Source: Mycobacterium colombiense (GTDB lineage: Bacteria > Actinomycetota > Actinomycetes > Mycobacteriales > Mycobacteriaceae). Taken from it: 64,000 bases of DNA. A program made the translations under genes and the position numbers. Location: contig NZ_LZKI01000073.1 of the NCBI RefSeq assembly GCF_001672755.1, forward strand, positions 124,001 to 188,000, given 5' to 3'. The notes beneath the pieces are model-generated. The model saw only the letters and a list, made by a program, of their open reading frames with translations, did no database searches and was not told where the DNA came from. Below, one piece after another: positions 1,462-54,135 of this stretch. Within the stretch, counting starts at the first letter, position 1. Each line of letters opens with the position of its first letter.

Positions 1462-2506
1462 AAGCGCACCTGCCCTTGCTGGGATCCACCTGGCCCCCGA
1501 GCGGCAGCAGGATGTCGCTGCCGGCCGGGCCGTTGATCTTGATCGTCACGGAGCAGAAGTAGATGTTGAAGAACGAACCGTAGGCGCCGAGGGCGGACAG
1601 CCGCAGATAGTCCTCGCCCAGCTGCTCGACGTCGTTGTTCACCTCGGCCTTGCGGTTGTCCAGTTCGGTCGCCAGCGGGCGGGTGTTCTCCAGGATGCCC
1701 TGCAGCGGACGCCGCGAATTCTTCAGCAGCTCAGTCAGATCCGTCGTCGTCGAAGCCAGTGGTGGAATGGCACCGGCGATATCGTCCTTGTGCTGGGCCA
1801 GCCCGGTGATCAGTTGTTGCAGCTGATCGACGCTGGTCGAGAATTGTGCGCTGCGTTGGTCCACGGTCGTCAGCACCGTGTTGAGGTTGTTGATCACGTC
1901 GCCGATGAGCTGGTCGCGCTGGCCCAGGGCCGAGGAGAACGCGCTGGTGTCGGCCAGCACATTGGACAACGCGCCACCCTGGCCCTGCAGCAACTGGATG
2001 ACCGCGCTGCTGATGGTGTTGACCTTGTCGGCGTCAAGGCCTTTGAGCACCGGTCGCAGCCCGCCCAGCAGTGCGTCGAGATCCAGTGCGGGCTGGGTGT
2101 GTTGGCTGTTGATCGTCGCGCCGGCCGGCAGCTTCCGCAGCTCCCCGGGGCCCGACGTGATTTCCAAAAACCGGTCGCCGACCAGGTTTTCGTAGCGGAT
2201 CACCGCGCGCGTGGACGAATAGAGCGTGTAGCGCTTGTCGACCCCGAACTTCACGTCGATGGTGTTGTCGGGGTTGAGCTTGATGCCCGACACCGCGCCG
2301 ACCGGCACCCCGGCGATGCGCACCTTCTGACCGGACTTCAGCCGTGACACGTCGGTAAACGTTGCGTGGTAGGTGCTTTCGGGGCCGAAGCGGAAGTCGC
2401 CGAAGACCACCACCAGTCCCGCGGACACCAGCAGCATCGCCACCGCGAAGATGCTGACCTTGGTGATCATCTCGCGGTGCGACGGCATTCCTGAGGAGCC
2501 GGCCAT
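1451..2506 (-). CDS. mce4B: Mce4B, sterol import MCE protein
   Basis: 351 residues with an N-terminal membrane anchor (about 14-35, ITKVSIFAVAMLLVSAGLV), an MCE domain (about 40-125: KVRIAGVPVGAV and ENLVGDRFLEI) and a helical C-terminal tunnel domain. The C-terminal part contains two cysteines (FCSV and RCAF) that could form a disulfide outside the cytoplasm. The ATG start overlaps the mce4A stop by one base (TGATG), so the two are coupled. Function: subunit of the Mce4 cholesterol transporter, by family and operon position. Confidence 0.95.
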   Translation of the reverse strand: MAGSSGMPSHREMITKVSIFAVAMLLVSAGLVVVFGDFRFGPESTYHATFTDVSRLKSGQKVRIAGVPVGAVSGIKLNPDNTIDVKFGVDKRYTLYSSTRAVIRYENLVGDRFLEITSGPGELRKLPAGATINSQHTQPALDLDALLGGLRPVLKGLDADKVNTISSAVIQLLQGQGGALSNVLADTSAFSSALGQRDQLIGDVINNLNTVLTTVDQRSAQFSTSVDQLQQLITGLAQHKDDIAGAIPPLASTTTDLTELLKNSRRPLQGILENTRPLATELDNRKAEVNNDVEQLGEDYLRLSALGAYGSFFNIYFCSVTIKINGPAGSDILLPLGGQVDPSKGRCAFVK

Positions 2507-3708
2507 CAGAAGTCGTCCCGTTCCGCGAAGGCGCCGTGGAACAAGAACTGCAGCGTGGAGGGCGCGTCGAACTGCAGCTCGGTGAACGGCTCGTACGGGA
2601 TGTTCGCGTTGTCGGTCACCAGGAACGGGGAACGGAAGAACGATCCGCCGGTCTGCTTGGTCGGAATGTCAGGCAGCCCACGGCAATTCGGGCCGCCGGA
2701 GGCGTTCACGATCGGCAGCGATTCGGGGTAGGTGTAGGCAGGGGCACCCAGCACGAAGCTCGACGACGTGAACAGGCCCGCCTTGCGGACACCGAGCAGC
2801 GGGGCGAATTCCTTGATACCGCGCTCGACGCCGGCGAACAGGCAGCCGAGTTCCGGCGAGTAGTCGGCGGCCACCTTGAGCGGGGCGCGCAGCCGGTTGA
2901 TGGCGGCGATGAAATCCTCTTCGGCCGGCGCCAACGTTTCGTACGCGTTGTTCGACAGGCCGATGGTGGCCAACAGCGTGCTGTCCAGGTTCTTCTGCTG
3001 GTCCACGACCGTCTTGTTGATCGTCGGCAGGTTGTCGATCACGGTGGTCAGGTCCGGCGCGGCGTCGGCGTAGACATTGGCCACCACCGCGGCCTTGCGG
3101 AAGTCCTCCTGCAGCGCGGGCAGCTTCGGGTTCGCCTGGCGCGTCAGCGTATTCAGGCCGGTCAGGATGCCGCCCAGGTCGTCGCCGTGGCCGCGCAGGC
3201 CTTCCGCGAACGCGCTCAGCGTGCCGTTGAGTTCGACGGGGTCGATCTTGTGCAGCAGGTCCATCAACGACTGGAACAAGGTGTTGACTTCCAGCTGCAC
3301 CGAAGAGGCGGCCACGTGCGCGTCCGGACGCAGCGAAGTCGGCGAAGGAGCCTGCGGCGGAATGAATTCCACCGCCTTGGCGCCGAAAATGGTGTTACCG
3401 GCGATGTGCACCGTCGCGTTGGACGGAATGAAATGCATGTCGTCGCTGGTGATCCCCAGCGTCAGCCGCGCCTGGTCACCGGAATAGTCGATGGCTTCGA
3501 CCTTGCCGATCTGGATACCCCGGTATTTGACCTTGGCGCCCTTCTCCATCACCAGCCCGGCCCGGGGTGCCGACACCGTGACGGTGTCGATCGACGCGAA
3601 GGCCGCCGTGTAGGAAAGGTAAGTCAGCACAGCGAAAGCCACTATCAGGCTGGCCAGCACTGCTGCTGCCAGCCGGACGGTTGTGCGGCGCGCGTCTGTT
3701 TCTGCCAT
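2506..3708 (-). CDS. mce4A: Mce4A, sterol import MCE protein
   Basis: 400 residues. Basic N-terminus, one membrane segment (about 13-35), then an MCE domain (about 40-120: VMEKGAKVKYRGIQIGKVE and GNTIFGAKAVEFI), then the long alpha-helical tail typical of Mce A proteins. ATG at 3708 is preceded by AAAAGGGAC, a good ribosome site. It is the first mce gene after the two yrbE permease genes, the universal order of mce operons. It binds or conducts sterol across the periplasm (family knowledge). Confidence 0.95.
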   Translation of the reverse strand: MAETDARRTTVRLAAAVLASLIVAFAVLTYLSYTAAFASIDTVTVSAPRAGLVMEKGAKVKYRGIQIGKVEAIDYSGDQARLTLGITSDDMHFIPSNATVHIAGNTIFGAKAVEFIPPQAPSPTSLRPDAHVAASSVQLEVNTLFQSLMDLLHKIDPVELNGTLSAFAEGLRGHGDDLGGILTGLNTLTRQANPKLPALQEDFRKAAVVANVYADAAPDLTTVIDNLPTINKTVVDQQKNLDSTLLATIGLSNNAYETLAPAEEDFIAAINRLRAPLKVAADYSPELGCLFAGVERGIKEFAPLLGVRKAGLFTSSSFVLGAPAYTYPESLPIVNASGGPNCRGLPDIPTKQTGGSFFRSPFLVTDNANIPYEPFTELQFDAPSTLQFLFHGAFAERDDF

Positions 3709-4590: not shown

Positions 4591-5355
4591 TCACTTCGCC
4601 GAGATCCGCACGCCGATGGCGGTCATCACCACGTTGATCACGAACAGACAGATGAAGGCGTAGACCACGGTTTCGTTGACCGCGTTGCCGACGCCCTTGG
4701 GCCCACCCTTGACGGTGAGGCCGCGGTAGCAGCCCACCATGCCGGCCATCACGCCGAACAGCAGCGCCTTGACTTCGGCCAGCACCAGCTCGCGCAGGCC
4801 GGTCAGCACTGTCAGGCCGTTGATGAACGCGCCGGGGTTGACGCCCTGCAGGAAGACGGAGAACACGTAGCCGCCGGAGAGACCGATGGCGCACACCAAG
4901 CCGTTGAGCAGCAGGGCCACCACCGTGGAGGCCAGCACGCGGGGCACGACCAGCCGCTGAATCGGGTCGATGCCGAGCACCCGCATCGCGTCGATCTCTT
5001 CGCGGATGGTGCGAGCGCCGAGGTCGGCGCAGATCGCGGTAGCACCGGCGCCGGCCACGACGAGCACGGTCACCACCGGCCCCAGCTGGGTGATGGTGCC
5101 GAATGCCGTCCCGGCGCCGGACAGGTCGGCGGCGCCGATCTCGCGCAGCAGGATGTTGAGGGTGAAGGCCACCAGGACCGTGAACGGGATGGACACCAGC
5201 AGCGTGGGGACCAGCGACACGCGCGCGATCATCCACGTCTGGTCGAGGAACTCACCGAATTGAAACGGCCGGCGAAAAGCTGCCCGGCCGGTATCCAGCA
5301 TCATTTCGAAAAATCCGCCGACGGCGCGGGCGGGAACCGCAAGTTGTTCCCTCAA
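4591..5355 (-). CDS. yrbE4A: YrbE4A, MlaE-type permease of the Mce4 transporter
   Basis: 254 residues, hydrophobic, with the MlaE signature region (GAGATAICADLGARTIREEIDAMRV region around residues 100-125). The start is TTG at 5355, preceded by a G-rich ribosome site (GAGGGGGGAA). An N-terminus starting here matches the family (REQLAVPARAVGGFFEM). First gene of the mce4 transporter block. The 236-nt region upstream contains a palindrome and a degenerate KstR box, suggesting an internal promoter separate from hsd4A. Confidence 0.94.
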   Translation of the reverse strand: MREQLAVPARAVGGFFEMMLDTGRAAFRRPFQFGEFLDQTWMIARVSLVPTLLVSIPFTVLVAFTLNILLREIGAADLSGAGTAFGTITQLGPVVTVLVVAGAGATAICADLGARTIREEIDAMRVLGIDPIQRLVVPRVLASTVVALLLNGLVCAIGLSGGYVFSVFLQGVNPGAFINGLTVLTGLRELVLAEVKALLFGVMAGMVGCYRGLTVKGGPKGVGNAVNETVVYAFICLFVINVVMTAIGVRISAK

Positions 5356-52704: not shown

Positions 52705-52749
52705 TGAAGCCTATAGCTAAAGTTATGCGCTATTAAGCTATAGTCTTCA
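52705..52749. promoter_or_regulatory. AT-rich inverted repeat immediately before the SatD gene
   Basis: Left arm TGAAGcCTATAGCT (52705-52718) and right arm AGCTATAGtCTTCA (52736-52749) match at 13 of 14 positions around a 17-nt spacer. The right arm ends one base before the ATG at 52751. The segment is far more AT-rich than its surroundings. It can be an operator, perhaps for the HTH of the SatD protein itself, or an mRNA hairpin covering the start codon. No ribosome site is apparent. Confidence 0.7.
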
Positions 52750-52750
52750 T

Positions 52751-53398
52751 ATGGTCCGGATGAAGCAATATTCTTCACCGCGCGCGACCCTCATCGGCGA
52801 CGTCGTCGGCTCCCGCCGCGCCACCGACCGCTCGAAGCTGCACCGGGCCCTGGCGAACGCCTTGCGGCATATCGCCGTCGGCGCCATCGACCCGCCGGCG
52901 TTCACCGTCGGTGACGAGTTTCAGGGCAGCTACCCGACCGTGGGTGCGGCGATCGATGCCGCGCTGTCGCTGCGGCTGGCCGTCGGCCCCGACGTCGACG
53001 TCCGGTTCGGCATCGGCTGGGGCGCGGTCACCGTCCTGGATGCCGACGCGGGAATCCAGGACGGGCCGGGCTGGTGGAGCGCGCGAGAGGCCATCCAGCA
53101 GACTGCGGCGGCTCAGCGGCAGCCGGGCTTCCAGCTGGTGCGCACGACCTTCCGGGCGGACGGTGACACACGCGATGACGTCGCCGCGGTCAACGCGGCC
53201 CTGATTTGTCGGGACCATCTGCTTGGATCGCTCGATGAGAGGTCGTTGCGGATTGTGACGGGGTTGATGACAGGCCGGACCAAAAAGGAGCTCGCCGCCG
53301 ACGAGGCCATCAGCCCGTCGGCGGTGTCCCAGCGCGCCAGTCGCGACGGCTTGGATCTGGTTGTCCTTGCCAGCCAATATCTTCGGAGCCTGCCGTGA
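52751..53398 (+). CDS. SatD-family protein: palm-like domain plus C-terminal HTH
   Basis: 215 residues. N-terminal part: ATLIGDVVGSR (Asp17), helix, FTVGDEFQGSY (Asp55-Glu56), helix AAIDAALSLRLA, strand VRFGIGWGAVTVLD (84-97), then DGPGWWSAREAIQ (104-116). The order and spacing resemble class III cyclases and GGDEF proteins. C-terminal part (about 163-200, TGRTKKELAADEAISPSAVSQRAS) is an HTH. ATG 52751 and ATG 52760 are both possible. GTGA overlap with the membrane protein gene. SatD functions are not established; nucleotide chemistry is my inference. Confidence 0.78.
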   Translation: MVRMKQYSSPRATLIGDVVGSRRATDRSKLHRALANALRHIAVGAIDPPAFTVGDEFQGSYPTVGAAIDAALSLRLAVGPDVDVRFGIGWGAVTVLDADAGIQDGPGWWSAREAIQQTAAAQRQPGFQLVRTTFRADGDTRDDVAAVNAALICRDHLLGSLDERSLRIVTGLMTGRTKKELAADEAISPSAVSQRASRDGLDLVVLASQYLRSLP

Positions 53399-54135
53399 GC
53401 GCCATCGCGGTCTTTCTCATCGCACTGGGAGTCGCCGACCTCTGCCGGCGGGCGACCCGCGCGGTCTGGCCGCCGCTGTTGATCGGGCCGGTGGTATTGG
53501 CGGCGTGTGCGGCGCTGGGGGCTCTGTGGCATGCCGGCGACATCGCATTGCTGGTGTTGGCCGCCGCGGCGGTCATCGCCTGGGAATGGCTGTGCGGGCG
53601 AAGCGAGCGCAGCGGCACCGGGCAAGGCGCACCGTTGGCCGTCTTCGGCTCCGCGCTGGCGCTGCTGGCCGTGTCGTCCGGCTGGTCCTCGCCGGCCGAC
53701 GGCGCCGTCGCGCGGTGGTCGGCCTGGGTTCACCTGCCGCTCGACCACGTCGCGCCCACCCGGCTGCTGATGCTCATCGGAGTGGTCCTGGTCCAGTTCG
53801 CCACCGCAAATCAGTTGGTGCGCTTGGTACTTGGCTCGGTGGGCGCGGTGCGCCCGGCCGGTGAGCCGCAACCGTCGGACCGGCTCAAGGGCGGCAGGCT
53901 GTTGGGACCGATGGAGCGCCTGCTGATCCTGAGCCTCGGTGTCGGCGGACAGGTGGCCGCGGCCAGCGCCGTGGTCGCCGCCAAGGGCATCATCCGGTTT
54001 CCCGAATTGAACGCTCAAACCAACCGTAACGGCGGCGTCGGCATCGACGAGGTGACCGAGTACTTCCTGGTCGGCAGCTTCACGAGCTGGCTGCTCGCCC
54101 TGGGCAGCATCGGGCTGGTGGTGGCAACCCCCTAG
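53395..54135 (+). CDS. Multi-pass membrane protein coupled to the SatD gene
   Basis: 246 residues with about seven hydrophobic segments (roughly 2-17, 24-46, 48-67, 78-96, 121-145, 174-196, 223-244). The C-terminus has AAKGIIRFPELN followed by EVTEYFLVGSFTSWLLAL, which recalls DUF3307-type membrane proteins encoded with SatD in other phyla (from memory, unverified). The GTG start overlaps the SatD stop as GTGA, so the two are made together. Function unknown. Convergent with fadA6, 12 nt apart. Confidence 0.75.
   Translation: MSAIAVFLIALGVADLCRRATRAVWPPLLIGPVVLAACAALGALWHAGDIALLVLAAAAVIAWEWLCGRSERSGTGQGAPLAVFGSALALLAVSSGWSSPADGAVARWSAWVHLPLDHVAPTRLLMLIGVVLVQFATANQLVRLVLGSVGAVRPAGEPQPSDRLKGGRLLGPMERLLILSLGVGGQVAAASAVVAAKGIIRFPELNAQTNRNGGVGIDEVTEYFLVGSFTSWLLALGSIGLVVATP

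Follow-up and report, generated by a model that had tools for sequence, protein, structure and literature searches.

The window analyzed here, a stretch of 64,000 nucleotides from Mycobacterium colombiense, carries a pair of overlapping genes encoding a SatD protein and a SatE-like membrane protein (below simply SatE) downstream of a putative operator array (Table 1). SatD is known mainly by its name, which refers to secretion and acid tolerance. The protein of the window matches the PF16264 family with 53.1 bits at a cut-off of 29, as do all 64 aligned relatives, and the Pfam search returned no family for the membrane protein, which AlphaFold2 models as polytopic with seven long helices and some shorter ones. 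The motifs, their positions, the GTGA overlap, and the multi-pass nature of the partner had all been described in an earlier note on this DNA and are borne out by the sequence and the model. Directly 3' of satD, the membrane protein gene recurs in most of 80 actinobacterial loci, mostly with a 4-base overlap, so the coupling of the two genes is not a matter of chance. We take the neighbors of the pair to be a CoA-transferase/ipdC-like gene cluster on one side and a fadA6-like thiolase gene on the other. The contig that holds the window is 223.8 kb long and belongs to a genome with many mycobacterial relatives.

Table 1. Features of the satD-satE locus in the window.
Feature	Position	Strand	Basis or remark
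Putative operator O1, TGAAGCCTATAGCTAAA	52705..52721	.	8/10 to TGAAG-N7-CTTCA
Putative operator O2, TTAAGCTATAGTCTTCA	52733..52749	.	9/10 to TGAAG-N7-CTTCA; 28 bp from O1
-10 box TATAGT, within O2	52739..52744	+	six bases 5' of ATG; inferred leaderless promoter
satD	52751..53398	+	215 aa; PF16264 match
Putative operator O3, TGAAGCAATATTCTTCA	52761..52777	.	10/10; inside satD codons 4-9; 28 bp from O2
Class III cyclase-type palm domain, residues 11-136	52781..53158	+	AlphaFold2, Foldseek, profile alignment, conservation
D17	52799-52801	+	palm metal-site position
G54-D55-E56	52910-52918	+	palm metal-site motif
R112	53084-53086	+	palm
C-terminal HTH region, residues 160-212	53228..53386	+	family matches, PDB profile search, AlphaFold2
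GTGA shared by the satD stop and the start of the membrane gene	53395..53398	+	sequence; same pair in related loci
satE-like membrane protein gene	53395..54135	+	246 aa; about 7 transmembrane helices
SatE C-terminal module GGRLLGPMER...AAKGIIRFPE...EYFLVGSF	53890..54117	+	common to DUF3307-type SatD partners

Members of the SatD family occur in Actinobacteria, Alphaproteobacteria, Fusobacteria, streptococci, and haloarchaea. A survey of co-occurrence, as the earlier note had proposed, showed the association with a membrane protein to be genuine and wide; it includes SatD-DUF3307 pairs of haloarchaea and Fusobacterium besides the actinobacterial loci. On haloarchaeal plasmids, the SatD-DUF3307 pair also has the 4-base overlap. 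The gene order is swapped in Nocardioides zeae (L083, 3556-3903), where a SatE-like gene lies 5' of satD, and an unannotated SatD-DUF3307 pair is found in Fusobacterium vincentii (L188, 2992-4525) on a 2.1-Mb record that is labelled a plasmid and has one annotated feature.

The SatD of the window features Asp17 in IGDVVGSR, GDEF at residues 54-57, VRFGIGWG at 84-91, and GPGWWSAREA at 105-114, which the earlier note had interpreted as signs of a palm-type nucleotide enzyme fold. An AlphaFold2 model built from 64 SatDs of genome contigs (pLDDT 96.5, pTM 0.92) supports this assignment, with secondary structure elements in the order b1 (11-19), a (27-40), b2 (47-51), b3 (56-61), a (64-78), b4 (83-91), short strands, a (106-122), and b (132-136), followed by helix throughout. 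The Foldseek comparison that the earlier note had suggested found the palm core present: Rv1900c, a class III adenylyl cyclase, heads the PDB matches (1ybt; E 2.8e-5, probability 1.00, rmsd 2.8). The remaining matches at E<=0.001 are other class III cyclases plus the PucR/CdaR-type structure 3onq and one GGDEF protein, with a Cas10 (Csm) complex ranking 43rd. Rv1900c is also the first match of a nine-sequence SatD profile among 177,635 PDB sequences (E 6e-4), and a larger SatD profile (E 0.019) aligns D17 and D55 with its first and second metal Asp (FTDIVGS and AGDGF). All of 24 divergent SatDs share D17, S21, G54, D55, E56, and G105, which is therefore no chance resemblance; R112 is kept in 21 of these proteins, which span at least four phyla (Actinobacteria, Alphaproteobacteria, Fusobacteria, and haloarchaea) and are in many cases 20-40% identical to the SatD of the window. 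These computations support the palm assignment: the N-terminal two thirds of SatD are predicted to form a class III nucleotide-cyclase-type palm. No match to the GGDEF family PF00990 was obtained for SatD, with PF16264 as the sole Pfam family at E up to 10. When the SatD palm was aligned with hhalign to sequences from its own genome, namely eight cyclase fragments and seven GGDEF domains, the matches were weak, as were those between cyclases and GGDEF domains in the same comparison. Besides SatD, the genome of the window (G000) has 24 class III cyclase and 7 GGDEF matches. A search of viral folds with SatD gave nothing at E<=0.001, and the palm matches there were cyclase or GGDEF proteins. A viral origin of SatD was rejected, given that the protein is absent from the viral contigs and phage records searched.

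Similar to SatD, class III adenylyl and guanylyl cyclases such as Rv1900c and Ma1120 combine the palm fold and its strand order with metal Asp residues that align with D17 and D55 and with an Arg in the helix that follows the DGP turn. Compared to these enzymes, SatD is a minimal domain of 125 residues fused to an HTH, and it lacks the conserved Lys and Asn: the position of the base-selecting Lys (51) is variable and that of the transition-state Asn (108) is aromatic (W/F/Y), with both equivalences resting on alignment only. Any catalysis by SatD is thus hypothetical. It could nonetheless be that SatD works mainly as a nucleotidyl cyclase or related palm enzyme whose nucleotide signal acts on SatE in a Pycsar-like manner and whose HTH only tunes expression. 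This reading draws on a class III palm that keeps both metal Asp, Glu56, and—in 21/24 proteins—Arg112, but the changed Asn and Lys positions speak against it, as does the fact that the HTH and the operators account for the gene pair without any enzyme, and we consider it unlikely.

C-terminal to the palm, the model of SatD shows helices across residues 163-212, and computed family matches among the 64 SatDs place an HTH there (Sigma70_r4 in 42, HTH_24 in 36, and KORA in 29). A search of the PDB with the SatD profile also returned sigma4 and response-regulator HTHs. SatD would thus unite a palm and an HTH in one chain, which is the plan of a one-component regulator, and it is predicted to bind DNA; satD has already been labelled "DNA-binding protein" in a recent table for Streptococcus suis (PMC12005413). 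We call SatD a variant of the known palm-HTH regulator plan, given that PucR/CdaR proteins (MabR Rv2242; BAD_0249, PDB 3onq) likewise place an HTH C-terminal to an alpha-beta domain of the cyclase/GGDEF type. The PF13556 HTH_30 and PF17853 GGDEF-like domains of PucR/CdaR were both not reported for SatD in the Pfam search. SatD differs from PucR/CdaR in its smaller size, its retained metal acids, its 28-bp operator arrays, and its membrane partner. One may therefore ask whether the palm of SatD is a relic serving dimerization or the binding of a non-nucleotide ligand, with SatD being an ordinary repressor. This is what the joining of a GGDEF-like fold that lost its catalytic motif to an HTH in PucR/CdaR (PMC11617747) would suggest, and 3onq is the third best Foldseek match of the SatD model. 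However, the GGDEF position of MabR reads HGTWL (PMC11617747), whereas D17, D55, and E56 are kept in all 24 divergent SatDs, and we regard a relic palm as somewhat unlikely.

Three TGAAG-N7-CTTCA palindromes in an exact 28-bp register cover the promoter and first codons of satD, from 52705 to 52777. Across 81 loci, such palindromes (>=9/10) occur 1.65 times per satD promoter region compared to 0.003 times per region in the remainder of these loci, and the 28-bp steps are the same in most loci from Mycobacterium to Phycicoccus, Janibacter, Terrabacter, and Aeromicrobium. TATAGT, TATAAT, or TATGAT is found at the same place as the -10 box in most loci, and the ATG follows exactly 18 bases from the start of the O2 site, in frame, in 46/53 loci. 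This fixed distance implies a leaderless transcript, which a protein bound at the array would block. The Ser codon within O3 is the rare TCA in 39/44 loci compared to 41/571 Ser codons elsewhere; it is O3 that fixes this codon, so the conserved N-terminal "MK...S" would reflect a constraint on the DNA and not on the protein. A sigma-70 promoter scan, which needs a -35 box, gave no match, and neither did an Rfam search.

Among 118 congeners, the double-site pattern was detected in 43/44 that have SatD and in 2/74 that lack it (Fisher P 1.4e-28). The lone SatD-positive exception (G407) has sites that are in register but mismatched (L187), and the two SatD-negative genomes with an array are relics in which the array beside ipdC was kept and satD is gone. 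Both relic arrays occupy the corresponding chromosomal position (L185, about 2035-2080; L186, about 2208-2250), and a separate broken satE fragment is also present in G434. Genome-wide, single sites are no commoner in the genome of the window than in a reversed control, and its only array is the one at sat. A few SatDs have no clear array (e.g., L020, L023, and L088). From the HTH and the co-occurrence, we infer that SatD itself binds the array.

Spacing is conserved much further than sequence. Significant paired palindromes are found in 16/36 divergent loci, and all 16 have a spacing of 28 bp (11 loci) or 29 bp (5 loci), while the half-sites read TAAG..CTTA in Microbacteriaceae, GTTCG..CGAAC and ACAACC..GGTTGT in haloarchaea, and TTAGCCC..GGGCTAA in Sphingomonas; the palindromes on Agrobacterium pAt are spaced by 28. 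In a first null test for spacing in the distant loci, seven lag-28 matches were present. In the full scan, most lag-28/29 matches are located at satD starts on either strand, and among the others are GC-rich repeats, exact tandem repeats, arrays by satE (L113 and L137), and one beside a gene for PycTM. The arrays by satE are second palindrome pairs of Microbacteriaceae with 28/29-bp spacing, just 3' of satE in L113 (5465-5510) and near the satE end in L137 (5381-5427), and two haloarchaeal plasmids with SatD-DUF3307 (L138 and L140) have four GTTCG-N10-CGAAC palindromes in two pairs 29 bp apart. Judged by these loci, the 28/29-bp register appears to be older than the palindrome sequence. Its maintenance while the half-sites drift along with the HTH seems to fit SatD as the binder; in an informal comparison, the recognition helix of Microbacteriaceae has other residues than that of Actinobacteria carrying TGAAG sites. 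The array could in principle be bound by another regulator, with a different role for the HTH region of SatD, but this is highly improbable with an array that tracks satD among congeners, has its sole copy in the genome of the window at sat, and holds its register beside satD across domains of life despite changed sequence.

The C-terminal half of SatE is homologous to SatD-adjoining DUF3307 proteins (hhalign probability 98.9, E 3e-17), so by sequence SatE is best described as a divergent relative of these proteins. The SatD partners of Sphingomonas, Agrobacterium, and Natronosalvus consist of little beyond this C-terminal module, which suggests that the module, and not DUF3307, is the common partner of SatD. 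In line with this, the membrane protein of the window has only the C-terminal module in common with DUF3307 partners, and the Pfam model of DUF3307 (PF11750), an N-terminal one, misses it, with no match listed among 54 membrane-protein relatives. The sat operon of Streptococcus mutans encodes SatD/SatE proteins (PF16264) that resemble the pair of the window and the SatD-DUF3307 pairs in that they combine the same SatD family with an adjoining multi-pass membrane protein. A fold search with SatE gave no significant PDB match. Among the 118 congeners, SatE is intact in 41/44 with SatD and in 0/74 without it. In four loci (L085, L086, and L128 of M. persicum, M. ostraviense, and M. gastri as well as L034), satE is truncated or internally deleted with satD and the array intact.

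The earlier note had gone on from the palm to a nucleotide enzyme coupled to a membrane effector. While the palm fold and the co-occurrence stand, this enzyme-effector interpretation is not supported as stated, as SatD has an HTH at its C-terminus and a dedicated operator array at its promoter, both of which had been missed. Similar to SatD-SatE, Pycsar systems encode a class III-type palm (the PycC cyclase) beside a membrane protein (PycTM), but cyclase activity of SatD is only putative, SatD has an HTH, and SatE is not PycTM-like, with no PycTM match in Pfam or PADLOC and none in the genome of the window. One Aeromicrobium-like lineage has satD without SatE, tail-to-tail with PycTM (Pfam E 1e-16, PADLOC 6e-18), at 4654-5307 (-) in L132 and 2163-2738 (-) in L024, and the satD-adjoining gene is the sole PycTM match in the genome of L132. 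Near the PycTM start, two ATCAAG..TTGAT palindromes lie 28 bp apart and are unlike the satD palindrome. This neighbor is a point in favor of SatD as chiefly an enzyme and keeps the signalling idea alive, but it is a lead and not proof, given that it is seen in one lineage only and with a palindrome that differs from that of satD. The enzyme-effector reading is therefore possible but second to SatD as a transcription factor. Cyclic-nucleotide defence by annotation was rejected, with neither SatD nor the membrane protein matched by PADLOC.

With a C-terminal HTH and a dedicated operator array, transcriptional regulation is the simplest role for SatD. Our preferred explanation, which we consider likely, is that SatD is an autoregulatory one-component transcription regulator that uses a metal-competent cyclase palm as its sensor and limits expression of satD-satE. 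In this model, SatD dimers would bind via their HTH to two to three palindromes 28 bp apart over their own promoter and first codons, and the bound protein would limit transcription of the operon, i.e., act by autorepression rather than activation. The palm with its two-metal acidic site would most likely bind a metal-nucleotide ligand or slowly turn one over, and this ligand would change DNA binding by SatD; conservation of the metal site suggests a metal-associated nucleotide as the signal, whether bound or turned over. SatE would be the controlled product, a membrane protein that is probably harmful when over-produced. Against this model, 28 bp correspond to about 2.7 helical turns, so that neighboring dimers would point to different sides of the double helix.

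In S. pyogenes, satD is reported to be essential where present yet accessory, as it is found in 178/249 genomes (PMC11323703), i.e., absent from 29% of them. Since SatD accompanies every intact SatE among the congeners, has a dense array at its own promoter, and is reported to be essential yet accessory in S. pyogenes, the most fitting role for it would be to repress a product that is harmful in excess. Transposon essentiality of satD can instead reflect polarity or another role. Compatible with SatD as such a repressor, and not mutually exclusive with it, is a toxin-antitoxin-like or defence module in which SatE would be a growth-stopping effector and SatD the repressor that is released by a nucleotide-linked signal. 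SatE that is never intact without SatD among the 118 congeners, the decay of SatE while SatD persists, the essentiality of satD only where present (PMC11323703), and the patchy distribution across species with plasmid-borne loci in archaea and proteobacteria all favor such a module, whereas the absence of PADLOC matches for both proteins and of SatD from the phage or viral records searched argues against it; we see it as a real possibility, though short of an even chance. More speculative still, and doubtful at present, is a "cyclase repressor" family of bacteria and archaea that would join a catalytically live class III-type palm and an HTH on 28-bp-phased arrays, use nucleotide binding or turnover as a sensor or timer, and free the harmful SatE (or, in one lineage, PycTM) under stress or phage attack.

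If SatD is a regulator with a metal-competent cyclase palm, this would explain the paradox of a gene that is reported to be essential in those Streptococcus pyogenes strains that carry it yet is missing from others. With such a regulator, the chemistry of class III cyclases and DNA binding would be directly connected within a single small protein, and a little-studied gene family that has been without a known function would gain one.
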